25,150 nt of DNA. Source: a virus. Within the stretch, counting starts at the first letter, position 1. Every line of letters begins with the position of its first letter. Under the pieces are notes generated by a model that was not told where the DNA came from, ran no database searches, and saw only the letters and a program-made list of their open reading frames with translations. This document shows positions 12,635 to 25,086 of this stretch, in pieces. The stretch spans positions 1-25,150 of the IMG/VR virus record IMGVR_UViG_3300020182_000174. One strand, given 5' to 3'. The translations under genes and the position numbers were made by a program.

Positions 12635-12658
12635 GAGCCACACTTTGTGTGTCTCTTT
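12635..12658 (+). repeat. GAGCCACAC hairpin element, copy 1
   Basis: GAGCCACAC-TTT-GTGTGTCTC-TTT: a 3-bp plus 5-bp stem with one C/T mismatch and a 3-nt loop. Four copies in the window have identical arms. This copy precedes the UUCG terminator and the first rightward gene. Confidence 0.75.
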
Positions 12659-12729
12659 GGTAGACTAATGGCAATGGAGCCACGTAACATGATCACTGAG
12701 CCTAGCTCAAGCAGTACCGTTCCCCCTTT

Positions 12730-12757
12730 GGTGGTGCCTTCGGGCATCATCCTTTTT
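12730..12757 (+). terminator. UUCG-loop rho-independent terminator
   Basis: GGTGGTGCC pairs with GGCATCATC (nine pairs, two G-U) around a TTCG tetraloop at 12739-12742, followed one base later by five T residues (12753-12757). It lies upstream of the first rightward gene (start 12778), so it would end a short non-coding leader transcript or act as an attenuator for the early arm. Confidence 0.85.
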
Positions 12758-12777
12758 AATTCAATAGGAGTATCCTC

Positions 12778-12939
12778 ATGGATTCTATTACTTTATTAGC
12801 ACTATCGTTCACCACTGTTGCCATCCTAGTAACCTTAGGGTTCACTGCATCTCTAGTAGCAGATGGCTTGCACAACTGGCACAAAGAACGACAGTACCGT
12901 AACCGTCCTCGTGGTGCCACACGTAGGACATTCAAGTAA
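12778..12939 (+). CDS. Small single-pass membrane protein
   Basis: This 53-residue ORF starts at MDSITLLALS with AGGAG seven bases upstream. Residues about 4-28 are a continuous hydrophobic helix (LLALSFTTVAILVTLGFTA), followed by a charged, Arg-rich tail (KERQYRNRPRGATRRTFK). This predicts an inner-membrane peptide with its basic tail in the cytoplasm. It is the first gene rightward of the control region and lies just after a terminator, so expression probably needs read-through or an internal promoter. Roles in lysis, superinfection exclusion or host takeover are possible but not shown. Confidence 0.75.
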   Translation: MDSITLLALSFTTVAILVTLGFTASLVADGLHNWHKERQYRNRPRGATRRTFK

Positions 12940-12947
12940 CACCTTGG

Positions 12948-12971
12948 GAGCCACACTGCGTGTGTCTCTTT
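12948..12971 (+). repeat. GAGCCACAC hairpin element, copy 2
   Basis: GAGCCACAC-TGC-GTGTGTCTC-TTT, with a fourth T at 12972. It lies 9 bp after the membrane-protein stop and 60 bp before the SSB start. Only the loop differs from the other copies. Confidence 0.75.
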
Positions 12972-13030
12972 TGTAGATAGGTACAATCCTGTATCATCTA
13001 ATCTCTTAATTTAACATAAGGTTAAACATT

Positions 13031-13540
13031 ATGACTGCTATCATTGAAGCTCCACGTAACTACATCATCCGTAACGCTCAGCTTAACTGGGCACGTTTGG
13101 ATAAGCCAGTGTCTCCCTTCGGCACTGAGCAGTACGAGTTACAGATTGCCACGGACAGCAAGGATGTAGCTAAAGAATGGACTGCTAACTTCCTCAATGT
13201 CAAAGAGAAGGATGGCATGTTCTCAGTAGGTCTCAAGCGTAAAGCCCGTAAGGCTAACGGTGAGGACAACGGTAAGCCTAAGGTTGTTACAGCTGATCTC
13301 CAGCCTCTTCCAGAGGGCATCATGATCGGTAACGGCTCCGTAGGTAACGTGAAGGTCTATCAGTATCCGTACGATGTAGCTGGTCGCAAGGGCACTGGAT
13401 GCTCACTCACAGCTGTACAGATCACTAACCTGATCGAATACGCAGGTGGTTCATCTGATGACTTCGTAGCTATCGAGTCAGAAACACCAGCAGCTTCACC
13501 AGTGGCATCGGACTCTGTAACATCCGGTGACCTCTTCTAA
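13031..13540 (+). CDS. Single-stranded DNA-binding protein (gp2.5-like)
   Basis: The protein has 169 residues. A beta-rich core includes YELQIATDSKDVAKEW, FSVGLKRKARK, and an IGNGSVGNVKVYQYPYDVAGRKG segment. This pattern resembles T7-like and marine podovirus SSBs, in which a LQ/NVxVYxYxYDxAGRKG strand is common. The C-terminus is Ser/Asp-rich and ends in SGDLF: an acidic tail with a terminal Phe, as in gp2.5, which docks with DNA polymerase and primase-helicase. An AAGG ten bases upstream is a modest RBS. It is encoded ahead of the replication genes. Its assignment rests on the fold pattern and tail; no direct DNA-binding residues can be named. Confidence 0.75.
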   Translation: MTAIIEAPRNYIIRNAQLNWARLDKPVSPFGTEQYELQIATDSKDVAKEWTANFLNVKEKDGMFSVGLKRKARKANGEDNGKPKVVTADLQPLPEGIMIGNGSVGNVKVYQYPYDVAGRKGTGCSLTAVQITNLIEYAGGSSDDFVAIESETPAASPVASDSVTSGDLF

Positions 13541-13556
13541 GTACTAAAGAAACACT

Positions 13557-13589
13557 CGGGGCACTCAGGCATCACGCTTGGGTGCTCCG
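13557..13589 (+). promoter_or_regulatory. 14-bp hairpin after SSB gene, family with 17183
   Basis: C13557-C13570 pairs with G13576-G13589 (fourteen pairs including three G-U) around an ATCAC loop. There is no T-run behind it. The hairpin at 17183-17210 shares the CACTCAG arm, GGGTG arm and TCAC loop, and two outer pairs differ by compensatory change. This supports a conserved RNA structure. Confidence 0.7.
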
Positions 13590-13639
13590 TAGCTTCTTGG
13601 TCAACCGACAAGGCTCATCCTGCATTCCTAGCGAGAGAT

Positions 13640-13657
13640 CTCGGTAGTCCCTTTAGG
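13640..13657 (+). promoter_or_regulatory. CTCGNTAGTCCCTNTAGG element
   Basis: CTCGGTAGTCCCTTTAGG matches 17305-17322 at 16/18 and, inverted, 12517-12534 at 16/18. It lies 41 bp before the next start codon, in the same order after a CACTCAG hairpin and an AACCGACA motif (13603-13610) as in the 17151-17385 intergenic region. Confidence 0.6.
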
Positions 13658-13698
13658 GGGAACCCCGGTACTCCCTATCTATTAAGAGAGGTAGTTGT

Positions 13699-14010
13699 AT
13701 GTATGTATATTATAGAGCTATGGCTCTTAAAGAGTTCCAAAGTGTCTTCATAAGAGAAGAGGACTACACTGGTTCTCAAGGTAGTACCTACTGGGCTGAT
13801 AGTGCATCAGTAGCTAGTCGCTATATGAGTCCTAACAGAGTACTTGTAGAACTAACACTAGACAGACCTATCAACCCTGACTATAAGGGAGTAGCTGTTG
13901 GTGTTGATCTCCAAGGGTACTCTAACAATCATATAGAGTACTGTATGCCTAAGGTGTACTTCCAATCCAATGTTCTTCCTAACCTATTAGAGGTCACTTA
14001 CTATGCCTAA
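13699..14010 (+). CDS. Unknown protein with ADP-ribosyltransferase-like pattern
   Basis: The protein has 103 residues, with GAGAGG seven bases before the ATG. It begins MYVYYRAMALKEFQ, then has TYWADSASVASRYM (about 31-44), a VLVELTLD strand, and near the end HIEYCMPKVYF. An Arg in the first strand, a Ser/Thr-Tyr-Trp segment before a helix with an A-x2-Y, and a late Glu followed by a -Pro- strand are the order seen in R-S-E class ADP-ribosyltransferase folds (phage and toxin proteins). The similarity is from motif order only and is weak. No other family was recognised. It could also be a purely structural unknown. Confidence 0.7.
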   Translation: MYVYYRAMALKEFQSVFIREEDYTGSQGSTYWADSASVASRYMSPNRVLVELTLDRPINPDYKGVAVGVDLQGYSNNHIEYCMPKVYFQSNVLPNLLEVTYYA

Positions 14011-14347
14011 GCCATTACAGGTAGCAACAACCATCCAGTCACAGATAGAGTCTGGTAGAGACAGTAAGGGTACGTCCGGTAGACACATGATGATGTGTTG
14101 GGCCTATGAGTCTCCATCAGTCGTAGAGGCTTACAACGACTACTGGGGTGGTCTACAGTTCCATGTCTCTGGTTTCAAACACAAGGGTACAGTAAGGGTC
14201 ATGCTACATTACAATGACACATACACTGTATCCTTCTTAGATAAGCAAGGTAATGAAGTACACTCCGTAGACTACATCCACTTCCCTGAGTTAGCTGAGA
14301 CTATAGATAGCTTCGTAGAGACTGGAGAGGTACTAGAAGATGCCTAA
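14003..14347 (+). CDS. Hypothetical protein
   Basis: The product has 114 residues; GAGGT lies eight bases before the ATG, which overlaps the end of the upstream gene by 8 bp. The first 35 residues are polar (TIQSQIESGRDSKGTSGR). A beta-rich region follows with HMMMCWAYESP, QFHVSGFKHKGTVRVMLHYNDTYTV (about 52-76) and SVDYIHFPELAETIDSFVE, a helix at the C-terminus. The alternating strands and final helix suggest a small compact domain. No family is recognised. It is part of a chain of overlapping early genes. Confidence 0.68.
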   Translation: MPKPLQVATTIQSQIESGRDSKGTSGRHMMMCWAYESPSVVEAYNDYWGGLQFHVSGFKHKGTVRVMLHYNDTYTVSFLDKQGNEVHSVDYIHFPELAETIDSFVETGEVLEDA

Positions 14348-14495
14348 TGATGATTACTTCACGTTATTAGCTATGGAACAATTGCAACAGGACATTGATG
14401 ATGGTGATTGGTCTGCTATCTATGAGCTACTACAACAGCTTCCAGACAACACCCTGATGCAGTACGTAACCTTCGAGGAGCCTTCTTATGATTGA
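14340..14495 (+). CDS. Small acidic protein
   Basis: This 51-residue ORF (MPNDDYFTLLAMEQLQQDID at the start, TFEEPSYD at the end) overlaps its neighbours by 8 bp on each side. GAGAGG precedes the ATG. It is acidic and helical, with an LQQDIDDGDWSAIYELLQQLP core like small phage proteins containing a GD-[WL]-x-A-[IL]-x-ELL repeat-like helix pair. Function is unknown. The tight coupling and good RBS support translation. Confidence 0.68.
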   Translation: MPNDDYFTLLAMEQLQQDIDDGDWSAIYELLQQLPDNTLMQYVTFEEPSYD

Positions 14496-14655
14496 GTCAG
14501 ACTACACCTGTTATAAGTGTGGCCCTGTACATGGGGATGATGTCAACTCATTAGAGGTTGTTGATCATGTCCCTTATGGGGATCAGTCAGTCCCTATGTA
14601 CACCTATGAATACAGTTGCAACTACTGTAATAGTGAGGTGGAGTACGATGGGTGA
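14488..14655 (+). CDS. Small zinc-ribbon protein
   Basis: This 55-residue ORF has two Cys pairs, CYKC (C8, C11) and CNYC (C44, C47), spaced 32 residues apart, the arrangement of a zinc ribbon. GAGGAG precedes the ATG by seven bases. It overlaps the genes on both sides by 8 bp. The region between the pairs is acidic and contains His26 (DHVPYGD). Small zinc ribbons in phages can bind nucleic acid or host RNA polymerase; the role here is not known. Confidence 0.68.
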   Translation: MIESDYTCYKCGPVHGDDVNSLEVVDHVPYGDQSVPMYTYEYSCNYCNSEVEYDG

Positions 14656-14719
14656 CATGACTATCCTCTTAATATCATCCATAGCAATCTGTCTGTATAT
14701 TAGCCTAACTAAGGATTAA
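14648..14719 (+). CDS. Membrane microprotein (23 residues)
   Basis: MGDMTILLISSIAICLYISL plus TKD is almost entirely one hydrophobic helix. It overlaps the zinc-ribbon gene by 8 bp, has GGAG four bases upstream of the ATG, and its stop sits 2 bp before the next start. Operon position and RBS argue for translation, but length makes this uncertain. Confidence 0.5.
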   Translation: MGDMTILLISSIAICLYISLTKD

Positions 14720-14721
14720 CC

Positions 14722-15444
14722 ATGAAACTATTAGATAGAAGTGGTGGTAACACCAAACTCAACAAGACCAATAAGAAAGAGATTGATCTACACTTTGCAG
14801 GTCTATCAATGCACCCTGATGATGCTATATGTGCTGGTGCTAAGGCTGCTGGTTGTATGGATGATTGTCTTAAAGAGGCTGGTCTCGGTGGTGTCTACCC
14901 CAGTGTCAACCAAGCTCGTCAAGCTAAGACAGACTTCTATCTATCAGATCAAGAAGGTTTCTTGGTACAGTTACGTAGGGAACTAACCAACTACGTTAAG
15001 TGGTGTGCTAAGAAAGGACTGCATGGTGTCGTACGCTTAAACGTACTGTCAGACATCCCTTGGGAAACCCATAACATCCCACAGGACTTCCCCGAGCTTA
15101 GCTTCTATGACTATTCTAAGGTCGCTAAGAGGTTCCACAAGGGTATGCCTAGTAACTATCGGTTGATGTTCAGCTACAGTGGTAAGCCTAGCTATAAGAA
15201 ACAAGTACTAAGTTTCCTAGACTCAGGTAGTGACTCCGCTGTTGCTGTTGTATTCAACCGTAGGCCATTCCCAGCTACATTCTTAGGTCGTAATGTTATA
15301 GACGGAGATGCCAGTGATTGGGTCAATGTCAACACCAAGGGTGTAGTTGTAGGTCTGACAGCTAAAGGGCCAGCTAAGCATAACGATAATGGGTTTGTTG
15401 TTGATGTATCAGAAATACCAGTGTTCGCTGTTGGAGGTATGTAA
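14722..15444 (+). CDS. Gp88-like conserved phage protein (DUF7227-like)
   Basis: The protein has 240 residues. It contains FAGLSMHPDD (about 26-34) and a CAGAKAAGCMDDC cluster (C37, C45, C49), then VRLNVLSDIPWE, a LSFYDYSKV motif, and late GVVVGLTAKGPAKH and DNGFVVDV segments. This succession matches the mycobacteriophage gene product 88 family and its relatives in marine phages. The clustered cysteines in the N-terminal part may hold metal. Activity is unknown in the family; the presence of the IPWE and FYDYTK-like motifs is diagnostic. AAGGATTAACC precedes the ATG. It starts the middle of the rightward accessory operon. Confidence 0.75.
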   Translation: MKLLDRSGGNTKLNKTNKKEIDLHFAGLSMHPDDAICAGAKAAGCMDDCLKEAGLGGVYPSVNQARQAKTDFYLSDQEGFLVQLRRELTNYVKWCAKKGLHGVVRLNVLSDIPWETHNIPQDFPELSFYDYSKVAKRFHKGMPSNYRLMFSYSGKPSYKKQVLSFLDSGSDSAVAVVFNRRPFPATFLGRNVIDGDASDWVNVNTKGVVVGLTAKGPAKHNDNGFVVDVSEIPVFAVGGM

Positions 15445-15677
15445 TGAATGGTAAGGGTGACAAAGCAAGACCTTTCAAAGTGTCCCGTGAGGTCTATGAG
15501 GATAGATATGATGCTATCTTTGGTAAGAAGAAGGAAACTGTTGTAGTACAGAATGATCTCTATGAGAACTCTCCATTCCATAAGTGGATGCAAGAGTGCC
15601 CAGTAGAGTATTCAGAAAACTTCACAGATAATCATGGTACTCGTGCAGAGTACACCTTTTGGATAGAAGAAGTTTAA
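15444..15677 (+). CDS. MNGKGDKxRP-type small phage protein
   Basis: The product has 77 residues. Its N-terminus, MNGKGDKARPFKVSREVY, followed by RYDAIFGKKKE, is a recurrent motif of small proteins in many phages, with no known function. The C-terminal half has acidic residues and an EYTFWIEEV end. Its start overlaps the TAA of the gp88-like gene (TAATG). The conserved Gly-Lys-rich start could bind phosphate or nucleic acid; this is inference. Confidence 0.75.
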   Translation: MNGKGDKARPFKVSREVYEDRYDAIFGKKKETVVVQNDLYENSPFHKWMQECPVEYSENFTDNHGTRAEYTFWIEEV

Positions 15678-15703
15678 CCTTAATGTAATTATTGGAGTAG
15701 TAT

Positions 15704-15931
15704 ATGTTTAAAGCAACCAGATTGTTCTCATTCCGTATCTCAAAGAAGTCCAACGGTCGTATCCGATTCACTGCCCTAGGCTTCTCAGGTTTCATTGCTT
15801 TACGTAAGATCAAGTCTCGTGGTTATGGCGTACAACGTCAGTCAACCTTCACCCAGCTGCACCTTGGACGTATCTCTATCGCTCTTGAGCACAACCGTCC
15901 AGCTAAGCAAGTGTGGAACTTCGCAGGGTAA
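15704..15931 (+). CDS. Small basic hypothetical protein
   Basis: This 75-residue protein is Arg/Lys-rich (FSFRISKKSNGRIRFTALGF) with alternating hydrophobic residues, which suggests a small beta-alpha fold. GGAG lies six bases before the ATG. It follows a 26-bp gap and precedes the next gene by 4 bp. A nucleic-acid-binding role would suit the charge. No family recognised. Confidence 0.65.
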   Translation: MFKATRLFSFRISKKSNGRIRFTALGFSGFIALRKIKSRGYGVQRQSTFTQLHLGRISIALEHNRPAKQVWNFAG

Positions 15932-15935
15932 TACT

Positions 15936-16298
15936 ATGAAGGTCTTCGTGTATTATAACTTGCGTAAGAAGTGTTTCAGCGTGAAGGCATTAGAGGGTAC
16001 TAACAAAGGGCGTGTGGTCAAACATGCGTCCTCTGTTATCCTCACTAATGTAACCTTCAAGGTATCAGAAGCAGGTAGACAAAGAGTTCTCAGAGACAAG
16101 CAGAAGAATGTACATGCAGGTGCCCAAGGCACACTATGCTCAACTGACATTCCATTTGCTTGGGTAACATCAAGACCTCGATCAGCCACATACAATCCTT
16201 ATAGTAACAAGACCTTTGTTGATATTGACAGTGGACAACCTGTTGTAAGTTCTGACATGGTTGAATTAACTAATCGTAAGGTTCTTTATAAGGGTTAA
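15936..16298 (+). CDS. Conserved phage hypothetical protein
   Basis: The protein has 120 residues from MKVFVYYNLRKKCFSVKALE; the longer open frame beginning at 15795 overlaps a real gene and lacks support, while AGGG eight bases upstream of this ATG fits. It contains KGRVVKHASSVILTNVTFKV and VSEAGRQRVLRDKQKNVHAG (about 47-66), a motif I recognise from small proteins of diverse phages. It ends with a Thr/Val-rich strand region. Function is unknown. The AGRQRV-RDKQKNVHA helix is basic and may bind nucleic acid. Confidence 0.72.
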   Translation: MKVFVYYNLRKKCFSVKALEGTNKGRVVKHASSVILTNVTFKVSEAGRQRVLRDKQKNVHAGAQGTLCSTDIPFAWVTSRPRSATYNPYSNKTFVDIDSGQPVVSSDMVELTNRKVLYKG

Positions 16299-16299
16299 C

Positions 16300-16383
16300 A
16301 TGGTAATCATATCTACAATTATGTACTTCATGATATCAATAGCGTTAGTCAATGCGTTACTAGAATCAATTTCAGAAGGATAA
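16300..16383 (+). CDS. Membrane microprotein (27 residues)
   Basis: MVIISTIMYFMISIALVNAL plus LESISEG is one hydrophobic helix with an acidic end. AAGGG lies five bases upstream of the ATG, which is 1 bp past the previous stop. The stop is 4 bp before the next start. Likely translated; function unknown. Confidence 0.55.
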   Translation: MVIISTIMYFMISIALVNALLESISEG

Positions 16384-16387
16384 GGTA

Positions 16388-16606
16388 ATGGATAGTTTAG
16401 ATGATAGAGTTATAGATCGTATGATAGAGATAGGAAACATCTCGGATCTACGTAATGATAGGATGGATACAAATGATGAGTACTATGCCAGTATGCTGAT
16501 GGTAATGGTGAGGGATGCAGAGGCTTATGTGTCAACCATCAGGAGCCATGAAGACTACAATGATATGTCAATAGACATCAATGAAGCACTCGGAGGTATA
16601 TCGTGA
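16388..16606 (+). CDS. Small acidic hypothetical protein
   Basis: This 72-residue protein is acidic and helical (DSLDDRVIDRMIEIGNISDL at the start; two short Met-rich helices). AAGG is close to the ATG and GAAGGAT a little farther upstream. It overlaps the next gene in a GTGA arrangement. No family recognised. Confidence 0.62.
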   Translation: MDSLDDRVIDRMIEIGNISDLRNDRMDTNDEYYASMLMVMVRDAEAYVSTIRSHEDYNDMSIDINEALGGIS

Positions 16607-16773
16607 AGTACTTAAAGTTATCAATAAAGTTCCTAGTGCTAATACCAATAGCCTTCACTGTAGATGTAGTTACAACAACACTCAAAGGTATAGCAGTGTT
16701 CTTAGAGCTTACAGAGAAATACTCATCCAGACTATTCGATAAAGCACTAGCGTGGTGTAACGATGTCAACTGA
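16603..16773 (+). CDS. Small membrane protein with GTG start
   Basis: This 56-residue ORF starts with GTG overlapping the upstream TGA (GTGA). GGAGG six bases earlier is the strongest RBS in the neighbourhood. The N-terminal half (YLKLSIKFLVLIPIAFTVDV) is a membrane helix, and the rest is amphipathic (GIAVFLELTEKYSSRLFDKA). It overlaps the next gene by 11 bp. Small membrane proteins of this type often block superinfection or support lysis in phages; no specific role is shown. Confidence 0.65.
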   Translation: MKYLKLSIKFLVLIPIAFTVDVVTTTLKGIAVFLELTEKYSSRLFDKALAWCNDVN

Positions 16774-17023
16774 TCTAATGTACGACATAGAAGCTAGGCT
16801 CGATCAGTTGTACTTAGATGCAAACAGAGAGGCAAGAGAGCTAGCCAGCCAGTACAACGAGGCACTAGCAGCTAACCTTCTGGATGCTTACATAGCAGCT
16901 GGTAATGAGATAGCAGCAGAGATACTGAAGATAGAACCTGATGCAGATGTTGCAGCAGTGTTCAACTCAGTAAAAACTAACCTCAAGTTAGAAATTGATG
17001 AGGGGATACGTTATAGTGTTTAG
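16763..17023 (+). CDS. Small helical acidic protein
   Basis: This 86-residue, Ala/Glu-rich protein is helical throughout (IEARLDQLYLDANREARELA, then NEALAANLLDAYIAAGNEIA). It lacks cysteines and is probably coiled coil. GGTG upstream is a weak RBS; translation may be coupled to the overlapping upstream gene. Unknown function. Confidence 0.62.
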   Translation: MSTDLMYDIEARLDQLYLDANREARELASQYNEALAANLLDAYIAAGNEIAAEILKIEPDADVAAVFNSVKTNLKLEIDEGIRYSV

Positions 17024-17150
17024 CTTTCTCTTTGTATTATGTTTGATATTCTTCTGCTTCTTCGTTGGAACTGGTAAAGATTGGGCCATCTTAGGGTGGG
17101 CACTTACAGGTCTAGCTTTAGTATCAGGTACACTCCTAAGTAACTTATAG
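17016..17150 (+). CDS. Membrane microprotein (44 residues, GTG start)
   Basis: The product has two hydrophobic segments (FSFLFVLCLIFFCFF and WALTGLALVSGTL) joined by a short GTGKD turn, so a hairpin in the membrane is predicted. GTG starts inside the previous gene (8-bp overlap), with GAGGGG ten bases upstream. It closes the block of small overlapping genes before a non-coding region. A holin-like or membrane-modifying role is possible but no holin family is recognised. Confidence 0.5.
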   Translation: MFSFLFVLCLIFFCFFVGTGKDWAILGWALTGLALVSGTLLSNL

Positions 17151-17155
17151 GCTAT

Positions 17156-17172
17156 ATTACCCGTACCTAATT
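17156..17172 (+). repeat. 17-mer ATTACCCGTACCTAATT, copy 1
   Basis: An exact match to 19033-19049. Both copies follow the last stop codon of a gene block within 15 bp and lie ahead of a new gene block. Function unknown; candidate regulator site. Confidence 0.75.
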
Positions 17173-17182
17173 GGAACTATAG

Positions 17183-17210
17183 GGTACACTCAGCTCACGC
17201 TGGGTGTGCC
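17183..17210 (+). promoter_or_regulatory. 12-bp hairpin, family with 13557
   Basis: GGTACACTCAGC pairs with GCTGGGTGTGCC (twelve pairs including two G-U) around TCAC. A-U and U-G pairs here replace G-C and G-U pairs of the 13557 hairpin. A T5 run at 17218-17222 follows after seven bases, so weak termination is possible. Confidence 0.72.
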
Positions 17211-17304
17211 TTGTACATTTTTAGTAACCGACATAGCTCACAGTCGTTCCGTTGGCCCCTTTTTTACGTAACCGACAACACGCAACAGGCATCTCGTGGG
17301 CAAT

Positions 17305-17322
17305 CTCGCTAGTCCCTATAGG
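17305..17322 (+). promoter_or_regulatory. CTCGNTAGTCCCTNTAGG element
   Basis: CTCGCTAGTCCCTATAGG has one mismatch to the inverted copy at 12517-12534 and two to 13640-13657. It lies 13 bp before a GAGCCACAC hairpin and 63 bp before the next start codon. Confidence 0.6.
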
Positions 17323-17334
17323 ACAACTTTAGTT

Positions 17335-17358
17335 GAGCCACACTACGTGTGTCTCTTT
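17335..17358 (+). repeat. GAGCCACAC hairpin element, copy 3
   Basis: GAGCCACAC-TAC-GTGTGTCTC-TTT, identical over more than 24 bases to the copy at 24912 including the flanking TTGAG and TTTATA. It ends 27 bp before the putative small terminase start. Confidence 0.78.
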
Positions 17359-17385
17359 ATAAGAATAAGCAACATAGGAGGTAAC

Positions 17386-17793
17386 ATGACAATCAAAAAG
17401 ATTAAACAACATCCAAACAGTTTAGCTAACCTAGCACCAAGGTTCACACCAGAGAATGCTAAAGAAGCTCAGCTAGCATCAGCAGCTTCCCGTAAGTTAA
17501 ACAGAGAGGCCCGAGAGAGGCTCTCGCTGACAGCATCAGAGCTTAAGATGGATGCGGATCAACTGATGGCAGTGAACAACTTAACTGCGTTAGACGTAAT
17601 GAGACTGTCAATGGTTAAGGCTCTGGCTAATGGTGATACAGATCAAGCAGTTGATATTGCAAAGGCACTAGCAGAGTTTGAGACACCTAAGTTAGGCAGG
17701 GTAGAGCAGACAATCAAAGAGATCAAAGCAGAAGATATGACTGATGATGAGCTAGATGCAAAACTACAATTACTTATAGGTGGTAAAGCTTAA
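17386..17793 (+). CDS. Putative terminase small subunit
   Basis: The protein has 135 residues from MTIKKIKQHPN; AGGAGG directly upstream of GTAACATG fixes the start and rejects the longer frame from 17296. The N-terminus has NSLANLAPRFTPENAKEAQL, typical of small phage proteins that precede a DNA-binding helix. A middle LTALDVMRLSMVKALANGD is followed by DIAKALAEFETPKLGRVEQT and an acidic DMTDDELDAKL end. The ordering FT-E-A, LTALD, A-YxTPKLxRVEQT and TDDEL resembles TerS proteins of T7-like marine phages. It would bind DNA and recruit TerL. It is unusual that it lies on the opposite strand and about 5 kb from terL. Confidence is moderate because no catalytic residues exist to check. Confidence 0.5.
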   Translation: MTIKKIKQHPNSLANLAPRFTPENAKEAQLASAASRKLNREARERLSLTASELKMDADQLMAVNNLTALDVMRLSMVKALANGDTDQAVDIAKALAEFETPKLGRVEQTIKEIKAEDMTDDELDAKLQLLIGGKA

Positions 17794-18032
17794 TGCTATA
17801 CAAGGTATACGGACAGAACAACTGTATGTACTGCACACTAGCAGTAGAACTACTGGAGATGCTCAGCAAGGACTACATATACATGATCATTGATGAGGAC
17901 ATCTCCAAAGCAGACTTCAGGGCCATCTTCCCGGAAGCCAAGACAGTGCCCCAGATAATGTCAGTGGATAACACCAACAAGAAAAGAATTGGTGGGTACA
18001 CAGAACTTAGACAACTACTAACAGGAATGTGA
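17793..18032 (+). CDS. Glutaredoxin
   Basis: The protein has 79 residues. It has the CMYC active site (C11-C14) after a YKVYGQNN strand, the cis-proline TVP at 51-53, and a final IGGYTEL (G67-G68) glutathione-contact motif. Length is normal for a class I/NrdH-like glutaredoxin. Its start overlaps the upstream stop (TAATG). It probably re-reduces the phage class II ribonucleotide reductase, whose C-terminal cysteine pair is present downstream. NrdH redoxin-like usage is an alternative. Confidence 0.92.
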   Translation: MLYKVYGQNNCMYCTLAVELLEMLSKDYIYMIIDEDISKADFRAIFPEAKTVPQIMSVDNTNKKRIGGYTELRQLLTGM

Positions 18033-18033
18033 A

Positions 18034-18513
18034 ATGAGTATTGATAACGCAACACCAGCAGAGTGGGATAGAGTAGCCAGTAACAACACCACAGTGGTTG
18101 AAGAGAGAGATCGTATAAGAAAGAAATGGTCACGATGGTTAATTACAGAGGATGATATTGATGGGATGATGGAAGAAGCCCACGTAATTGTACGAGAAGA
18201 AGCAGACACAGCACCATTGCCCAAGGATGCCCAAGAACGTAAGCGTATACCAGTGTACACAGGCTTTATCAACTACTTCCCAAGGGCAATAGCAGCAGTG
18301 GCTAAGCTGTCCCTTATTGGTGGCATCCAACACGGACAAACAGCAGAGACACTCCACTGGGATAGATCAAAGTCTGGTGACGAACTAGATGCCATGATGA
18401 GGCATGTCCTCGATGGAGATTGGGAACAAGTAGCATGGAGAGCTATGGCTAACTTGGAAAAGAAACTGGAGAAAGGTGATGCCGGTAAAAGCAAGAACAT
18501 CAAAAAAGACTAG
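18034..18513 (+). CDS. DUF5664-type dATP/dGTP diphosphohydrolase-like protein
   Basis: The protein has 159 residues. The characteristic region is KRIPVYTGFINYFPRAIAAV (about 70-89), AKLSLIGGIQHG, ETLHWDRSKS, then GDELDAMMRHVLDGDWEQVA. This string of P-x-GF-x-YFPRA, a Leu-Gly-Gly turn, and ALxRHL-x-GD matches the DUF5664 family, which is annotated as the N-terminal domain of dATP/dGTP diphosphohydrolases. Members of this helical fold hydrolyse nucleotides to shift the pool. Catalytic residues are not proven here; the Asp/Glu and His of DELDAMMRH are candidates. AGGA precedes the ATG. It sits beside glutaredoxin and upstream of replication genes. No PurZ is present in the window, so a 2-aminoadenine pathway is not supported. 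Confidence 0.68.
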   Translation: MSIDNATPAEWDRVASNNTTVVEERDRIRKKWSRWLITEDDIDGMMEEAHVIVREEADTAPLPKDAQERKRIPVYTGFINYFPRAIAAVAKLSLIGGIQHGQTAETLHWDRSKSGDELDAMMRHVLDGDWEQVAWRAMANLEKKLEKGDAGKSKNIKKD

Positions 18514-18799
18514 AGAATACGAAAGGGACTTCAGAAAGAAACGATGGAAGATGATATTTGAGTTCTATGGAGGAAGAATGTGCACAGACTGCAAGGTAAA
18601 GTCAGACTATCCCATCTATGATCTACACCACAGGGTACCAGAGAAGAAAGACTTCTCAATAGGCAAGTCAATTAAAACTAAATGGGAGAAGATAGAGAAA
18701 GAACTAGCTAAGTGTGACCTATTATGCTCTAACTGTCACAGAATCAGACACGATGTAGAGAGAAAACAACAAAGAGAGGGGATAAATGGAAGTAATTAA
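18479..18799 (+). CDS. HNH endonuclease
   Basis: The protein has 106 residues from MPVKARTSKK; an in-frame GTG one codon earlier is less favoured given GGAG seven bases before this ATG. Two Cys pairs, CTDC (C35, C38) and CSNC (C83, C86), bind structural zinc, and YDLHHRVPEKKDF supplies the first His (H50/H51) while CHRIRH supplies H87/H91, a complete ββα-metal layout. It overlaps the upstream gene by 35 bp and the next by 14 bp. HNH proteins act as homing nucleases or assist terminase cutting; nothing here separates these roles. It is not inside another gene, which argues slightly against a recent homing insertion. Confidence 0.88.
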   Translation: MPVKARTSKKTREYERDFRKKRWKMIFEFYGGRMCTDCKVKSDYPIYDLHHRVPEKKDFSIGKSIKTKWEKIEKELAKCDLLCSNCHRIRHDVERKQQREGINGSN

Positions 18800-19022: not shown

Positions 19023-19032
19023 CCTCCCTTAC

Positions 19033-19049
19033 ATTACCCGTACCTAATT
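19033..19049 (+). repeat. 17-mer ATTACCCGTACCTAATT, copy 2
   Basis: An exact copy of 17156-17172, lying 10 bp past the previous stop and 45 bp before the polymerase start. Its flanks are not conserved apart from TA-A upstream and GA downstream. Confidence 0.75.
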
Positions 19050-19093
19050 AGACTAAGCCTAACCCAATACCGGGTGGCACTCAAGGAATTAAC

Positions 19094-20929
19094 ATGAAGC
19101 TAGTATTTGATATAGAAAGTAACGGTTTACTGGAAGAAATCTCTACCATTTGGTGTATCGTATGCCAGAATGTGGACACTAAAGAGATCATTTCCTTCTC
19201 AGATCACGATGATACACTGCAAAACATCCAAGCTGGCCTTGATTACCTTCAAGCAGCTGATGTTCTCATAGGCCACAACATAATTGGCTATGATATACCT
19301 GCAATAAAGATAGTAACAGGCATTGACTTACTAGATAAGAAGTGCTACGACACCTTAATTATGTCCCAGATGCTACGATATAAACGTAATCACAGGCATG
19401 GGTTGAAGGGTTGGGGTGAGAAACTAGGTGATAGTAAGCTAGATTACAACGATTGGACTCAATACACACCAGAGATGTTAACTTATTGCATACAAGATGT
19501 GGAGTTGAATACTAAGGTGTACGAAGAGTTAGTGAAAGAATTTAAACAGTTTCATGCAAAGTTCCCATTGATTGCTAAAGGTCTTGAGGTAGAACACGAT
19601 GTGTTCAAGTTCAACACTATGGTTAGAGAACAGGGTTGGAACTTCGATGCCAAGAAGGGTAAGGCAAGCTTAGCACTTATGAATGCTAAGGCTAAAGAGA
19701 TACAAGATGCTATCGAGCCACACCTTGGCACACACACAGTGTTTATTGATAAGGAACCTAAGACTGCTAAGTTCAAGAAGAACGGAGAGTACACCGCAGT
19801 TACTGTACGTCTACTGTCTGACTACTTTGGTCGAGAGGTACTGCCAACGGACACACATCTGATGGCTGCTGGGGCAAGCTTCCAACGTACTAAGGTTGTA
19901 CAGACTAAGCTAGGTCAGATAGATATGGTTAAGGAGTGGTTGTTAGAAAGCAAAGGTTGGAAACCGGATGAGTATACCCGCAAGAAGACTGCCCGTGGTT
20001 GGATCAACGTGGCCCCTAAGTTCACAGAGACTTCTCTAAGTAAACTAGGAGAGGTCGGTGAGATGTTAGGCCAGTACTACACACTGCGTAATCGTATCAG
20101 TGTTATGGAGAGTTGGTTTGAGCAACTCAAGGATGGTCGTATCCACGGTAACATGTGGACTATTGGTACCCCTTCCTTCCGAGCAAGACACGAGGTGATT
20201 GTCAACCTGCCGGGTGTCCATGCTGCATGGGGTCGTGAGTTACGTGAGTGCTTTGCTGCTGATGAGGGTGACCTTATTGTGGGTGCTGACTCTAGTGGTA
20301 ACCAACTACGTGGCCTGTGCCACTACGTAGGTAACGAAGAGTTCACTCGAGAAGTTATCTTTGGTGATCAACACCAACGTAATGCAGATGCACTGGGTTG
20401 TTCACGATCAGTAGCTAAGTCATTCCTGTATGCCTACTTGTTTGGTGCAGGAGACTCTAAGTTGGGTCAAGTACTGACTGGTAAGGGTAACCCCAAGGTC
20501 GGTAAGGAAGCCCGTGCTAACTTTGCTAGTGCTATTCAAGGTCTGGATCAGATCAAGAAGCAAGTAGAGGGTGAGTGGAACCGTAAGCAGAACACCCAAG
20601 GTAATGGCTGGGTTCATGGGTTAGATGGTAGACCTGTGTTCATTAACTCTGAGCATCAGTGTCTCAACTACTTACTGCAATCAGCAGAAGGTATCACTTG
20701 TAAAGCAGCTGTGTCATACCAAATGCAGAAGATCAAAGAAGAAGGGTTACGTGCTAAGCCTCGTATCTTCTACCATGATGAGTCTGCTTGGAGTGTACAC
20801 CCCGATGATGCTGAGCGTGTGGGTCAGATACTTAAAGAGAGTTTCAAAGAAGCACCTAAGTGGTTCGGTGTAGAGTGTATGGATGGTGGTGATGCAATGA
20901 TTGGTACCTCCTATGCAGATGTTCACTAG
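19094..20929 (+). CDS. Family A DNA polymerase with 3'-5' exonuclease (T7-like)
   Basis: The protein has 611 residues; T7 gp5 has 704. Exo I is FDIES (D6, E8), Exo II is IGHNIIGYD (N62, D67), Exo III is YCIQD (Y131, D135), so proofreading should be active. The palm domain has motif A ADSSGNQLRG (D399) and motif C YHDE (H561, D562, E563). The O-helix is AKSFLYAYLFG with K442 and Y446, equivalent to T7 Tyr526 and so a Tyr762-type polymerase. At the DYSQIELR glutamate this protein has Gln404, and the residue equivalent to E. coli Tyr766 is Phe450. The thumb/fingers region between 200 and 330 is less conserved. AAGGAATTAAC precedes the ATG. It replicates phage DNA, presumably with host thioredoxin-like or phage processivity help not visible here. 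Confidence 0.93.
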   Translation: MKLVFDIESNGLLEEISTIWCIVCQNVDTKEIISFSDHDDTLQNIQAGLDYLQAADVLIGHNIIGYDIPAIKIVTGIDLLDKKCYDTLIMSQMLRYKRNHRHGLKGWGEKLGDSKLDYNDWTQYTPEMLTYCIQDVELNTKVYEELVKEFKQFHAKFPLIAKGLEVEHDVFKFNTMVREQGWNFDAKKGKASLALMNAKAKEIQDAIEPHLGTHTVFIDKEPKTAKFKKNGEYTAVTVRLLSDYFGREVLPTDTHLMAAGASFQRTKVVQTKLGQIDMVKEWLLESKGWKPDEYTRKKTARGWINVAPKFTETSLSKLGEVGEMLGQYYTLRNRISVMESWFEQLKDGRIHGNMWTIGTPSFRARHEVIVNLPGVHAAWGRELRECFAADEGDLIVGADSSGNQLRGLCHYVGNEEFTREVIFGDQHQRNADALGCSRSVAKSFLYAYLFGAGDSKLGQVLTGKGNPKVGKEARANFASAIQGLDQIKKQVEGEWNRKQNTQGNGWVHGLDGRPVFINSEHQCLNYLLQSAEGITCKAAVSYQMQKIKEEGLRAKPRIFYHDESAWSVHPDDAERVGQILKESFKEAPKWFGVECMDGGDAMIGTSYADVH

Positions 20930-20941
20930 AGGATTAATGGT

Positions 20942-21871
20942 ATGACAGATAAAAGAATGCAGGTGTTGATTGACGCTGACTCAATCTACTTTAGGATAGC
21001 TATGGCTACCCAGAGGGAGAAGGATATGCGAGTAAACTTACGTAAAACCCTCATGGATATAGAAGATAAGTGCTCAGTCATTGAACCAGTGGACATGAGG
21101 ATAGCCGTTAAAGGCAAGGGGAACTTCCGTACGGGAGTTTCTCCTGACTACAAGGGTAACCGTAAGCGTGAGCTAGAACCCGGTGAGAAGAAAGCTCTGG
21201 CCTATGGACATCAACACTTAATTGATAAGTATGATGCAGTAATGGCTCATGACATGGAGGCTGATGATCTAGTCTCCATCTGGGCATGGGAGTGCATTAG
21301 TAATGATCTACCCTACGTCATTGTCCACATTGATAAAGACTTAAACATGATCCCGGGCAACCACTACAACTTTGTAAAGAAAGAAGAATACTTTGTTGAC
21401 TATGAGAAAGGTCACTACAACTTCATGATGCAGATGTTGATAGGTGATGCCACAGATAACATCCCCGGGGTTAAAGGAATAGGCCCAAAGAGAGCTGAGA
21501 AGCTGCTGCTTAACTGCCCCTTCGATAGGCGTTGGCAAACTGTAAGGAACTGCTGGTCAGATAAGAAGCAAATGCTTATCTCCGCTAGGTTACTATGGAT
21601 GGCGACAAGCTTTGAGGAAGCTGAGAGTGGTAATGAGATGTTACTAGAGTACATCCATGCACAATCAGTGGAAGACTTTTGGGCCATGAACCCTATACCA
21701 CTGGAGGATAAGGATGAAGAACAAACACATGGTGAAACCCCTGAGTGCGAACAAGATGTTTGCGAAGAAGGGGAGGACAACATTCAAGACAGCGGATTAC
21801 AAGAGGTATCAGGAGGAGATCCGGGACGAGATGATGGCAGCAGTGTGGCCCTTCGGGACGAATCAAGTTGA
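20942..21871 (+). CDS. 5'-3' exonuclease (FEN family, T7 gp6-like)
   Basis: The protein has 309 residues. An N-terminal VLIDADSIYFR supplies D11/D13, MEADDLVS and HIDKDL provide further metal ligands, and GDATDNIPGVKGIGPKRAEK forms the helix-3-turn-helix DNA-binding part. It removes RNA primers and degrades host DNA 5'-3' in T7-like phages. The last 50 residues are acidic (EEQTHGETPECEQDVC and beyond) and lie out of frame over the start of the resolvase gene. GAGGAT upstream of the ATG is the RBS. It follows the polymerase by 12 bp. Confidence 0.88.
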   Translation: MTDKRMQVLIDADSIYFRIAMATQREKDMRVNLRKTLMDIEDKCSVIEPVDMRIAVKGKGNFRTGVSPDYKGNRKRELEPGEKKALAYGHQHLIDKYDAVMAHDMEADDLVSIWAWECISNDLPYVIVHIDKDLNMIPGNHYNFVKKEEYFVDYEKGHYNFMMQMLIGDATDNIPGVKGIGPKRAEKLLLNCPFDRRWQTVRNCWSDKKQMLISARLLWMATSFEEAESGNEMLLEYIHAQSVEDFWAMNPIPLEDKDEEQTHGETPECEQDVCEEGEDNIQDSGLQEVSGGDPGRDDGSSVALRDESS

Positions 21872-22070
21872 GTTCACCATCGAGGGAGGCATGTCTAACA
21901 GGGGTGCCGACCTTGACAACATAATAAAACCCATCTTAGATACCTACCAAGGTATCTTTGAGGAGTTCAATGACAACAAGGTGTACCATATAGAACTCAC
22001 TAAGAAGATCGTTAAGAAAGGTGAGGAGTACATCAGCGTACATATCAAAGAACTAGAGAGTGTTACATGA
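21714..22070 (+). CDS. RusA-like Holliday junction resolvase
   Basis: The protein has 118 residues. The motif GADLDNIIKPILD places acidic D66 and D68 and K72; D87 lies 21 residues after D66. E. coli RusA uses D70, D72, K76 and D91, the same spacing, so a complete active site is present. It resolves branched replication intermediates, probably ahead of packaging. GGAGGATAAGG lies directly before the ATG. The first 158 bp overlap the exonuclease gene in another frame, and its stop overlaps the next start (ATGA). Confidence 0.88.
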   Translation: MKNKHMVKPLSANKMFAKKGRTTFKTADYKRYQEEIRDEMMAAVWPFGTNQVEFTIEGGMSNRGADLDNIIKPILDTYQGIFEEFNDNKVYHIELTKKIVKKGEEYISVHIKELESVT

Positions 22071-22231
22071 AAAGAATAAAGCTTAAGGGTGGTGATGAGT
22101 ATGATGTCCACACTAGTTGGAGGAAGCTCATCAGACCATCCAAGGGCATGATCAAACGTGCAAAGAGAACCTATAACAAACGGTTCCGCAAGGAATGTAA
22201 TGATCAAACCATTAAGGGTTTGGAGGAATGA
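22067..22231 (+). CDS. Small basic hypothetical protein
   Basis: This 54-residue ORF starts MKRIKLKGGDEYD and has a strongly basic middle (IKRAKRTYNKRFRKE). Small phage proteins beginning MKRIKLKGGDEYD are familiar to me as hypotheticals, often near replication genes. The start overlaps the resolvase stop as ATGA. It is probably a nucleic-acid-binding or accessory protein; no activity is known. Confidence 0.72.
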   Translation: MKRIKLKGGDEYDVHTSWRKLIRPSKGMIKRAKRTYNKRFRKECNDQTIKGLEE

Positions 22232-22236
22232 TCGAT

Positions 22237-22416
22237 ATGAGAGTTAAAATGTATAAACTAGTACAAGAGATAGTCGAATCGGGTATTGAGTCTGGGTACA
22301 ATCGGGCACATAAGCACACCGACAGCCCTTGTGATGAAACAATTAAACAGTGCATTGAACAATACATAATGAATGGCTTTGATGAAGCATTTGAATTTAA
22401 TAAAGAGGATATATAA
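22237..22416 (+). CDS. Small hypothetical protein
   Basis: The product has 59 residues starting MRVKMYKLVQEIVESGIESG. An earlier ATG at 22228 overlaps the previous stop but has its GGAGG only one base away, so the second ATG, nine to ten bases from GGAGG, is preferred. It is helical, acidic at the C-terminus, and lacks known motifs. It lies 2 bp before the reductase gene and may be translated with it. Confidence 0.62.
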   Translation: MRVKMYKLVQEIVESGIESGYNRAHKHTDSPCDETIKQCIEQYIMNGFDEAFEFNKEDI

Positions 22417-22418
22417 TA

Positions 22419-24305
22419 ATGGATCAGTATCAACAGTTTATACACAAGAGCCGCTATGCACGTTGGATGCCAGAGTTAGGCCGTAGAGAAACATGGGCAG
22501 AAACAGTTAACCGTTACGTTGGTTTCTGGGAAGGACGGGGGCAAATAGATAAGGAGACAGCGGCTCAAATGTTTGATGCTATCCATGACCTAAAGGTTAT
22601 GCCATCTATGCGGTGCATGATGACAGCAGGTACTGCCTTAGCTAAGGATAACGTAGCTGGATTTAATTGTAGTTACTTACACATTGATTCACCACGTAGC
22701 TTTGATGAGTTGATGTACGTGTTGATGTGCGGTACAGGTGTAGGGTTCAGTGTCGAGCGTAACTTCATCAACAAACTACCAATAGTATCAGAAGAGTTCC
22801 ACCCTACAGACACTGTGATTGTTGTTGCTGACAGTAAGATTGGTTGGGCCTCAGCATTCCGTGAGCTTATTGCTATGCTCTATGCTGGTAAGATACCTAA
22901 GTGGGATGTGAGTAAGGTACGAAGTGCTGGCGAACGCCTTAAGACATTTGGTGGTCGTGCCTCTGGGCCTGAGCCTCTAGTAGATCTCTTTAACTTCTGT
23001 GTGCAACTCTTCCAGAAAGCTAAGGGCCGTAAGCTATCAAGCCTAGAGTGCCATGATGTGTGCTGTAAGGTTGCTGACATCGTAGTTGTAGGTGGTGTCC
23101 GTAGGTCTGCACTGATCAGCCTCTCTAATCTATCAGATCAACGTATGGCTAAGGCTAAGTCAGGACAGTGGTGGTTGAATGAAGGTCAACGTAGACTCGC
23201 TAACAACAGCGTGGCGTACACTGAGAAACCAGACTTTGAAGCCTTCCTTAATGAGATGAAGAACATGTACGAGTCTAAAGCTGGTGAGCGTGGTATCTTC
23301 AGCCGTGTTGCAGCCCAGAAGATCGCTGCTCGTAACGGACGGAGAGATGCTACGTATGAGTTCGGAACTAACCCGTGCTCTGAAATCATCCTACGTAGTA
23401 ACCAGTTCTGTAACCTCTCCGAGGTAGTGGTACGTGCAGAGGATACCCTTGAAGATCTCAAAGAGAAGATCGAGATGGCAGCTATCATCGGTACCCTACA
23501 GGCTACACTAACTGACTTCCGTTACCTACGTAAGTCTTGGAAAACTAATACAGAAGAGGAAGCGTTACTTGGTGTGAGCCTTACAGGTATCATGGATCAC
23601 CCAGTGCTGAATGCAAGGGGTGGTGTTAATGGTGAACTACAAGACTGGCTTGAGACAATGCGAGATGCTGCTGTTAAGGTTAATGAGAAGTGGGCTAAGA
23701 AGCTTGGCATTAATCAGGCTGCTGCTATTACAGCTGTCAAGCCAAGTGGTACTGTATCTCAGCTTGTCGATTCTGCTTCTGGCATTCATCCTCGCTTCTC
23801 TAAGCATTACATTCGTAGTGTACGTTCAGACAAGAAAGACCCACTGGCAATCTTCATGCAAGAAAAAGGATTCCCAGTAGAGCAAGACGTTCATAGTGAA
23901 TCTTCACTGGTGTTCAGCTTCCCTGTCAAGGCACCTGAAGCCAGTGTGACTGTCAAGGAGGTGGGTGCAATGGCTCAGCTTGAGCAATGGAAAGCCTATC
24001 AGAACTTCTATTGTGAACACAAGCCAAGCATCACCGTCTACTACACTGATGATGAGTTCTTAGAAGTATGCCAATGGATCTGGGACAACTTCGATATGTG
24101 CTCAGGGATCTCTCTGCTGCCCGTTAGCGATCATGTATACCAACAGGCACCCTATCAGGATATAACCCCTGAGAAGTACGCTGAGTTGCTTGAGGCTATG
24201 CCTACGGGTATTGACTGGGCTGACTTAGGTGACTTTGAAATGGAAGATAACACTACAGGTTCTCAAGAGCTAGCCTGTGTTGGTGGTGCGTGTGAGATCG
24301 TCTAG
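22419..24305 (+). CDS. nrdJ: Class II (adenosylcobalamin-dependent) ribonucleotide reductase, monomeric type
   Basis: The protein has 628 residues and makes deoxynucleotides for phage DNA synthesis without oxygen dependence. Residues that correspond to L. leichmannii RTPR are C84 (C119), C320 in NPCSEI (C408, with E322), and C331 in NQFCNLS (C419); the 11-residue spacing is preserved. The redox C-terminal pair is C620/C625 in CVGGAC. No separate small (beta) subunit gene is present, which fits a B12 enzyme, and the product is shorter than the 739-residue Lactobacillus enzyme with no ATP-cone visible. Electrons probably come from the phage glutaredoxin or host thioredoxin. GAGGAT lies upstream. 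Cobalamin supply must come from the host or surroundings. Confidence 0.93.
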   Translation: MDQYQQFIHKSRYARWMPELGRRETWAETVNRYVGFWEGRGQIDKETAAQMFDAIHDLKVMPSMRCMMTAGTALAKDNVAGFNCSYLHIDSPRSFDELMYVLMCGTGVGFSVERNFINKLPIVSEEFHPTDTVIVVADSKIGWASAFRELIAMLYAGKIPKWDVSKVRSAGERLKTFGGRASGPEPLVDLFNFCVQLFQKAKGRKLSSLECHDVCCKVADIVVVGGVRRSALISLSNLSDQRMAKAKSGQWWLNEGQRRLANNSVAYTEKPDFEAFLNEMKNMYESKAGERGIFSRVAAQKIAARNGRRDATYEFGTNPCSEIILRSNQFCNLSEVVVRAEDTLEDLKEKIEMAAIIGTLQATLTDFRYLRKSWKTNTEEEALLGVSLTGIMDHPVLNARGGVNGELQDWLETMRDAAVKVNEKWAKKLGINQAAAITAVKPSGTVSQLVDSASGIHPRFSKHYIRSVRSDKKDPLAIFMQEKGFPVEQDVHSESSLVFSFPVKAPEASVTVKEVGAMAQLEQWKAYQNFYCEHKPSITVYYTDDEFLEVCQWIWDNFDMCSGISLLPVSDHVYQQAPYQDITPEKYAELLEAMPTGIDWADLGDFEMEDNTTGSQELACVGGACEIV

Positions 24306-24306
24306 T

Positions 24307-24465
24307 ATGGTTGATGATATGAGGGACATTGTCCACGGCCCCGTAATGAAAGCAATGACTGACGTTGTTGAGGGTAGGCTAGCACTATCCCAAGCCTGTC
24401 AGAAGCACAGAGTAACTAAAGAAGAGATACTAGAGTTGGTCTCTAGGTTCTTACACGAAGAGTAA
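24307..24465 (+). CDS. Small helix-turn-helix-like protein
   Basis: This 52-residue ORF from MVDDMRDIVHGPVMKAMTDV starts 1 bp after the reductase stop; there is no clear RBS, so translation is probably coupled. The C-terminal half, ALSQACQKHRVTKEEILELV, has the length and spacing of a short psq-type DNA-binding helix-turn-helix. A regulatory role is possible, but this is inferred from one short pattern. The longer frame from 24277 is rejected because it overlaps the reductase. Confidence 0.6.
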   Translation: MVDDMRDIVHGPVMKAMTDVVEGRLALSQACQKHRVTKEEILELVSRFLHEE

Positions 24466-24532
24466 ACCAACGTAGTAGTTTAAGAAAAGCCTGATATAAG
24501 GCGTATAGGTACCCAAACAACCGTTTAAGTAA

Positions 24533-24569
24533 ACTATAGTGACCCCATAGGTATTCCCTGTGGGGTTAC
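24533..24569 (+). promoter_or_regulatory. 27-bp repeat copy 2 with 13-bp hairpin before mazG
   Basis: ACTATAGTGACCCCATAGG plus TATTCCCT (24533-24559) matches 12482-12508 at 24/27. Here the sequence also folds: 24539-24551 pairs with 24557-24569 over thirteen pairs (two G-U) around TATTC. No T-run follows, so termination is not typical. The hairpin's second arm is absent from copy 1. Confidence 0.7.
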
Positions 24570-24588
24570 AACATTTAAGGAATTGATT

Positions 24589-24906
24589 ATGACAACAGTA
24601 GTTAACTGTACACTTGATGAACTAGAACATAAAGTACTCCTCTGGGGTTACGAGAAGGGTATCCTCCCTAATGGACAAGCATCTAAGCAGTTCAGTAAGA
24701 CACTAGAAGAAGTCTCTGAGTTATGCTCAGCCATCGAGAGTTTAGATGATGAAGAAGTTATAGATGCTATTGGTGATATCGTAGTGACACTTATAATGCA
24801 AGCAAACATCTGGGGTGTAGACCTTAAGGCTTGCTTAGGTTCAGCGTACGATGTGATAGCTAAGCGTACAGGTACAATGGTTAACGGTGTATTCGTTAAG
24901 GACTGA
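24589..24906 (+). CDS. MazG-like nucleotide pyrophosphohydrolase
   Basis: The protein has 105 residues. KTLEEVSELCSAIE gives the E-x2-E metal site (E41, E44) and EEVIDAIGDIVV gives E-x2-D with D59 and D63, the all-alpha NTP pyrophosphatase arrangement. A C-terminal CLGSAYDVIAKRTGTMVNG is conserved among phage MazG-like proteins. MTTVVNC is chosen over an upstream in-frame TTG because AAGGAA lies six bases before this ATG. Phage versions are thought to adjust nucleotide pools or (p)ppGpp; neither is shown here. It lies between the reductase and primase genes. Confidence 0.85.
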   Translation: MTTVVNCTLDELEHKVLLWGYEKGILPNGQASKQFSKTLEEVSELCSAIESLDDEEVIDAIGDIVVTLIMQANIWGVDLKACLGSAYDVIAKRTGTMVNGVFVKD

Positions 24907-24911
24907 GGGTT

Positions 24912-24935
24912 GAGCCACACTACGTGTGTCTCTTT
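24912..24935 (+). repeat. GAGCCACAC hairpin element, copy 4
   Basis: GAGCCACAC-TAC-GTGTGTCTC-TTT, 6 bp past the mazG stop and 13 bp before the next start. With its flanks (TTGAG before, TTTATA after) it equals the copy at 17335. Confidence 0.78.
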
Positions 24936-24948
24936 ATAGGATAATGTT

Positions 24949-25086
24949 ATGAAAGGTACTAAAGATATTGTTGAAGAGCCTACAATCACTAAGTCAGATG
25001 CTAAGGCTATACGACTAGCTAAAAGTGATAAGCGTAGGAAGAAGCGTGTATCTAAAGAAGAACTCTACGAAAAGAAGTGGAAATAG
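24949..25086 (+). CDS. Small basic hypothetical protein before primase
   Basis: This 45-residue ORF begins MKGTKDIVEEPTITKSDA and is Lys/Arg-rich in its second half (KRRKKRVSKEELYEKKWK). AGGA lies seven bases before the ATG. It is 2 bp upstream of the primase start. Function is unknown; a charge-based interaction with DNA is plausible. Confidence 0.65.
   Translation: MKGTKDIVEEPTITKSDAKAIRLAKSDKRRKKRVSKEELYEKKWK

Follow-up and report, generated by a model that had tools for sequence, protein, structure and literature searches.

Repeated intergenic hairpins in a marine phage clade as putative DNA promoters for a compact second RNA polymerase

Arrangement of the hairpins in the window

By what is a 21-base hairpin recognised that a phage repeats between its genes, each time with the same mismatch in the stem, and is it read as RNA or as DNA? 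The question was raised by a stretch of DNA, here called the window, a 25,150-base piece of the genome of a tailed marine phage. Its left part carries leftward genes for tail fibre, capsid, scaffold, portal and TerL, and its right part rightward genes for a single-stranded DNA (ssDNA)-binding protein (ssb), GP88, glutaredoxin, DNA polymerase A, an exonuclease, RusA, ribonucleotide reductase and MazG. The closest isolate is Roseobacter phage CRP-7 (TerL 61%, capsid 56%).

An exact search of the whole window for GAGCCACAC-N3-GTGTGTCTC yielded exactly four exact copies, all on the + strand; from the shuffled window 0.01 matches were expected, with up to three mismatches allowed. This confirmed the positions, the rightward orientation and the loops TTT, TGC, TAC and TAC, which had been listed earlier from the letters alone (the sequence-only reading), as well as the location of all copies upstream of rightward genes, where plausible start codons follow at 16 to about 120 nt. 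Copy A, GAGCCACAC-TTT-GTGTGTCTC, is found at 12635–12655. Copy B (12948–12968, loop TGC) lies 63 nt upstream of ssb (13031–13540, + strand), whose gp2.5-like product matches phrog_112 with an E value of 2e-20. Copy C (17335–17355, loop TAC) stands 14 nt past a T7-like promoter motif and precedes the gene for a putative terminase small subunit (TerS; 17386–17793, + strand), an assignment suggested by its position; a homologue adjoins TerL in CRP-7. Copy D (24912–24932, loop TAC) is flanked by mazG on one side and by a 45-aa ORF (24949–25086, + strand) on the other. Directly 3′ of each of the four hairpins is TTT. The stem comprises 9 bp with one mismatch, i.e., five pairs with the triloop, then a G-A, then three outer pairs.

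The window contains also an intergenic direct repeat, ACTATAGTRAYCCCHTAGGTATTCCCT, at 12482–12508 and 24533–24559 (89% identical, + strand), and two terminator-like hairpins with T runs, one at 12730–12751 between copy A and the next ORF, the other at 17178–17215 just 5′ of the promoter motif at 17306. An ORF for an HNH-like endonuclease (18476–18799) has small early genes on one side and the DNA polymerase on the other; many relatives, though not all, possess such an ORF.

Covariation in relatives and the strand that folds

Related phages were searched for the pattern, as the sequence-only reading had proposed. A scan of IMG/VR gave exact matches in 14 further contigs, 13 of which belong to the clade of the window phage; the remaining one, L014, lacks the TTT flank and looks like a chance match. 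When any base was allowed at either mismatch position (GAGN...NCTC), the same 14 contigs only were recovered, every copy having C/T or T/C. The copies occupy four homologous loci, namely the start of the rightward region (A; occupied also in G002, G004, G006 and G016), the region 5′ of ssb (B), that 5′ of the TerS-like gene (C) and that 3′ of mazG (D). At these loci relatives carry hairpins of other sequence and the same architecture: GTGTCACAC-TTC-GTGTGCCAC (G019, G020), CGCCACG-CAAG-CGTGTCG (G015, G016), GCTC-NNNN-CAAG-NNNN-TCGC, in which the paired inner stem takes several forms (G017, L113), AGGCCGCAG-ACAAG-CTGCGTCCT and its variants (L134 type), TTG-C-CCGC-ATCC-GCGG-T-CAA (L131), CGC-C-CGCTC-TTGC-GAGCG-T-GCG (L117) and the fully paired AATCCGACC-ACAGG-GGTCGGATT (L163). 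Two more types were seen by eye in L143 and L114 (coding loop TTC; tandem TC/TC mismatches). Genome G016 (55.4 kb), which was counted as effectively complete because its ends overlap, contains exactly four copies, all rightward and all 5′ of a gene for a T7-like RNA polymerase (RNAP). No matching hairpin set was found in CRP-7 and Kolga, no match in Rfam at gathering or relaxed thresholds, and no description of these hairpins in a literature search. A broad whole-genome hairpin scan was too noisy and was set aside.

Counting of pairs showed many two-sided changes, compensatory within and between genomes, and almost no broken pairs, a result which is partly due to construction, because most instances came from a scan requiring pairing. 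Independent controls were provided by window-type variants, obtained by a mismatch search in which pairing was not required, and by the strand bias: the architecture was matched 39 times rightward and 3 times leftward in 14 contigs, against order-1 Markov expectations of 1.3 and 2.1, respectively. In L134, L163, G017 and L113 the arms are wholly different between copies of one genome and pairing is retained. The identity of the arms, as claimed from the sequence alone, holds within the window phage, but not in the relatives, where the arms change in a compensatory way. The further claim of a recognised element in which the kept mismatch matters was borne out: the coding-strand mismatch was C·T in 24 and T·C in 3 of the 27 distinct mismatch-bearing hairpins and never C·C or T·T, which the scan would have allowed. 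Distances from hairpin to start codon of 12–149 nt were also recorded, and a purine is present at +7 of the 3′ flank in all distinct contexts (62/62). G011 has an additional hairpin (L104, 2669–2689, − strand), followed by a gene of its own, in the interval between loci A and B, which suggests that hairpin-gene cassettes move together.

Seen from the template strand, every mismatch becomes G·A or A·G, with tandem GA/GA in the G017 (CAAG) type. The template loops of the window, AAA in copy A, GCA in copy B and GTA in copies C and D, belong to a triloop class "RNA" (R, purine; N; A), each closed by C-G; the 3′ A and the C-G closing pair are present in 4/4 copies, the 5′ G in 3/4, with A in copy A. 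Two other hairpin types have the loops GCAA and GGAT/GAAT. The CTTG-, CTTGT- and CCYGT-loop types fall outside the GNA class, and the CCYGT type has no mismatch. GNA and GNNA loops are known to confer extra stability on DNA hairpins (PMC4686876). Folding with DNA parameters gave −5.8 kcal/mol for the template strand and −3.4 kcal/mol for the coding strand, i.e., about 2.4 kcal/mol in favour of the template; a similar gap was obtained with two other types. Four features favour a DNA hairpin promoter over an RNA hairpin, namely the class of the mismatch, the loops on the template strand, the energies of DNA folding and the presence of a linked N4-like RNAP (see below). A reading at the RNA level had served as an earlier working model and was dropped once the second RNAP had been found and the absence of C·C and T·T had been noticed.

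A second RNA polymerase and comparison with phage N4

The final gene of the leftward virion operon in G016 encodes a product of 1,128 aa, which matches an RNA-polymerase PHROG. Homologues of this second RNAP co-occur with the hairpins in 11/11 long hairpin-bearing genomes tested and were found at 69 loci overall; 62 ORFs have lengths of 1,116–1,342 aa, with about 1,150 aa being typical. Invariant motifs are DGKTNG (A), NKxTTMTFGYG (B) and YDAFKMD (C); the known catalytic positions of the N4 virion RNAP are occupied by DGVTNG, K-x7-YG and FDG. Only 5 cysteines were counted in 71,676 aa (none in 57 of the 62 ORFs, one in each of the other 5), as compared to about 1% in the genomes. The gene of the window phage itself (L219) encodes 1,147 aa and is situated outside the window, on contig IMGVR_UViG_3300020169_000077, which continues it with 100% identity over 2,577 bp. 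By Foldseek, an AlphaFold2 model of L219 (pLDDT 79.6) was matched to T7 RNAP (3e3j, E 3e-15) and to the N4 mini-vRNAP-promoter complex (3c46, E 2e-13); virion RNAPs predicted for other phages were likewise among the matches. TM-scores were moderate, at about 0.4. When the PDB was searched with the second RNAP, by single sequence and by profile, no sequence-level match appeared; the profile against N4 mini-vRNAP by sequence alone was below significance overall, though motif A aligned. In its catalytic motifs and its fold the protein belongs with the T7/N4 single-subunit RNAPs.

Between G016 and relatives the second RNAP is 31–38% identical, while the values are 65–80% for the T7-like RNAP and 82–85% for TerL; its faster evolution is as expected for a protein that tracks changing hairpins. 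The position in the operon suggests that it is packaged in the virion. No sequence homologue was found in CRP-7 and Kolga. CRP-7 is no clean negative, since its gp33 (L081, 17859–21566), a cysteine-free protein of 1,235 aa in the position of the second RNAP and without detectable sequence similarity to it, may represent a virion RNAP that has diverged. In L093 (4054–13708) cysteine counts are 0, 0 and 1 for the second RNAP and its neighbours of 1,319 and 764 aa, a trio which resembles the N4 ejection-protein cassette gp50–gp52.

To our knowledge, the reading of folded ssDNA promoters by a virion RNAP is known only from coliphage N4 and its family. The early promoters P1–P3 and the virion RNAP gp50 of N4 represent the system of the Schitoviridae, which is present also in LUZ7 and LIT1; promoters of this type are further characterised by mapped start sites and by dependence on gyrase and SSB. 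In the N4 mechanism, supercoiling drives the extrusion of a template-strand hairpin with a sheared G:A in the loop and free stem bases, and the promoter needs a loop-closing C:G, a 5′ G and a 3′ A of the loop (PMC4496689). The early hairpins, as read from the N4 genome, are GTTGC-TTC-GCAAC, AAGAAGC-TCC-GCTTCTT and AAGCTGC-TCC-GCAGCTT, with the 3′ flanks TTATGGA, TTGGA and TTGGT, respectively. Their coding loops TTC, TCC and TCC are TNY closed by C-G, and TTT, TGC and TAC of the window are of the same class. As in N4, the elements are short inverted repeats 5′ of early rightward genes, with 5–7 bp around a 3-base loop; the stem bases are free while pairing is kept, as seen here from compensatory changes, and a purine start would be located a few bases downstream, which is a prediction here. 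Both polymerases are single-subunit enzymes whose genes close the leftward virion operon, gp50 being devoid of cysteine and the new RNAP nearly so; cysteine-free polymerases have been reported for LUZ7 and LIT1 as well (PMC3715699). A further phage RNAP is encoded downstream in both systems.

There are also clear differences. The polymerase described here has 1,116–1,342 aa, in contrast to about 3,500 aa in N4; N4-type virion RNAPs measure 2,842–3,820 aa, and the reference study discarded virion-RNAP-like proteins of < 2,500 aa (PMC10654107). In a recent preprint, Schitoviridae are considered the only phages with the large virion RNAP (PMC12633501). The hairpin is longer, with an extra G-A pair and three outer pairs; loops vary between clades; the further RNAP is one chain of 694 aa with T7-like promoters. 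The N4 base contacts −11 A/G and −8 G are not reproduced, since the loop centre is A, C or T and template −8 is A; therefore, the hairpin was filed as working like an N4 promoter, not as one. In tblastn searches of G016, G005 and G002, N4 capsid, portal, TerL and tail genes gave no meaningful match (E up to 1).

Proposed promoter function and rival explanations

Judged from comparative evidence, the four hairpins are quite probably N4-type early DNA-hairpin promoters for a compact virion RNAP. Negative supercoiling would extrude the inverted repeat, and the template strand would fold into a compact RNA triloop (GNA-like; R, purine) with a G-A pair in the stem. The single-subunit RNAP of about 1,150 residues would enter with the virion and recognise the folded strand; we infer this recognition, as well as a start at the conserved purine 7–8 nt past the hairpin, which is predicted at about 12662 (AGA), 12975, 17362 and 24939 (GGA) for copies A to D, respectively. 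Transcription by the virion RNAP would then cover the rightward early genes, including that for the T7-like RNAP, which in turn would use separate TAGTCCCTATAGG promoters. Since the stem would be free as long as it is paired, and the loop and mismatch would follow the polymerase, each phage lineage would have its own hairpin sequence. The notion that the hairpin defines transcription units, as put forward in the sequence-only reading, is probably right.

In relatives the gene for the T7-like RNAP (PF00940) lies 3′ of copy D; for the window phage it was found on contig G014, an extension of the window (100% identity over 2,577 bp), about 1.8 kb past copy D. The promoter motif TCGNTAGTCCCTATAGG is present on both strands. 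A copy, TCGCTAGTCCCTATAGG, at 17306–17322 (+ strand) is located directly 5′ of copy C and is conserved in G002, G005 and G016; another at 12517–12533 (− strand) faces the terminase and structural operon, and a third, with one mismatch, is found 3′ of ssb (13641–13657, + strand). Because copy C stands 14 nt past such a promoter, its unit would have an early and a later start; in several clades the distance is 10–20 nt.

The latter arrangement would also place copy C at the 5′ end of an RNA, which could favour processing or 5′-stabilising hairpins that work like the RNase III sites of T7 and cut the rightward transcript into units or protect its ends. Intergenic location, fixed orientation, variable distance 5′ of ribosome sites, covarying stems and a few variants which pair as G-U on the coding strand only (e.g., copy B of G011) could be taken in the same sense, and the T7 sites R0.3–R1.3 likewise divide an early rightward region by several intergenic hairpins. 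The element here has only 21 bp and would probably lie outside the initiating transcript, whereas T7 R1.1 folds over 60 nt and contains a 4/5 internal loop, and dsRNA of still greater length is preferred by an RNase III from an alphaproteobacterium (PMC6121014). A stem of 9 bp with a mismatch (−7.2 kcal/mol) is too short for RNase III, no gene for which was found in six of these phages (0/6), and neither the restriction to C-T and T-C, nor the DNA-stable loop classes, nor the linked fast-evolving RNAP would be explained. RNase III processing, the function favoured in the sequence-only reading, is thus considered unlikely. Still less probable is an RNA operator by which a phage regulator would coordinate the four units, comparable to translational operators or to boxB, the RNA hairpin whose loop is bound by lambda N (PMC3526286). 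Genome-specific hairpins are indeed reused at several leaders, but no candidate RNA-binding protein was found among the small ORFs scanned, distances of 12–149 nt to start codons speak against direct occlusion of ribosomes, and the class of the mismatch is better explained by DNA.

Double-stranded DNA could be the target of a dimeric protein, for which a near-perfect palindrome with invariant arms inside the window phage would be suitable; this idea, already disfavoured, is very improbable, as a single genome may carry copies with entirely different, yet still paired, arms (L134, L163, G017, L113) and the orientation is fixed. A weak intrinsic terminator or attenuator appears similarly far-fetched. 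It would account for the TTT after the hairpin and was flagged by a consensus scan, but three T are followed by mixed bases instead of a run of at least five, longer terminator-like hairpins with T runs occur elsewhere in the phage (12730, 17178), and several copies stand directly 5′ of ribosome sites; a simple terminator had been doubted already from the sequence alone, and rightly so. Some resemblance exists to the start-associated and extended start-associated sequences (SAS/ESAS) of cluster K mycobacteriophages, which are repeated, mostly one-way inverted repeats 5′ of non-structural genes with subcluster-specific consensus (PMC3203893). ESAS differ by arms of 17 bp, spacers of 4–13 bp and a 13-bp ribosome-site motif beside them, and a linked virion RNAP is not described for cluster K.

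Returning to DNA-hairpin promoters, it seems reasonably likely that a large marine clade outside the Schitoviridae infects in the manner of N4, using a reduced virion RNAP (about 1,150 aa) that coevolves with its hairpin promoters, beside a T7-like RNAP with duplex promoters. As part of the same claim, the RNA triloop, GCAA, GRAT, CTTG, CTTGT and CCYGT loops, with single or tandem G-A, would form a series of specificities. If this is true, the reading of folded ssDNA promoters would be a wider strategy, of which many unclassified marine phages would possess a compact version; the polymerase function would be separable from the large accessory domains of N4, and dozens of matched polymerase-promoter pairs would become available for studies of DNA-hairpin recognition. 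Short cysteine-free polymerases and portable 21-base promoters could perhaps serve for transcription of ssDNA.

Two minor observations concern the T7-like promoters of relatives. A candidate on the + strand beside L163-type hairpins was dropped as uncertain, because the sequence overlaps the ribosome site of TerS on the other strand. In L134 (8700–8775), hairpin C has a ATATACCCCTTATAG promoter on either side; the two converge and together make up a long inverted repeat, with TerS on one side and the early genes on the other.
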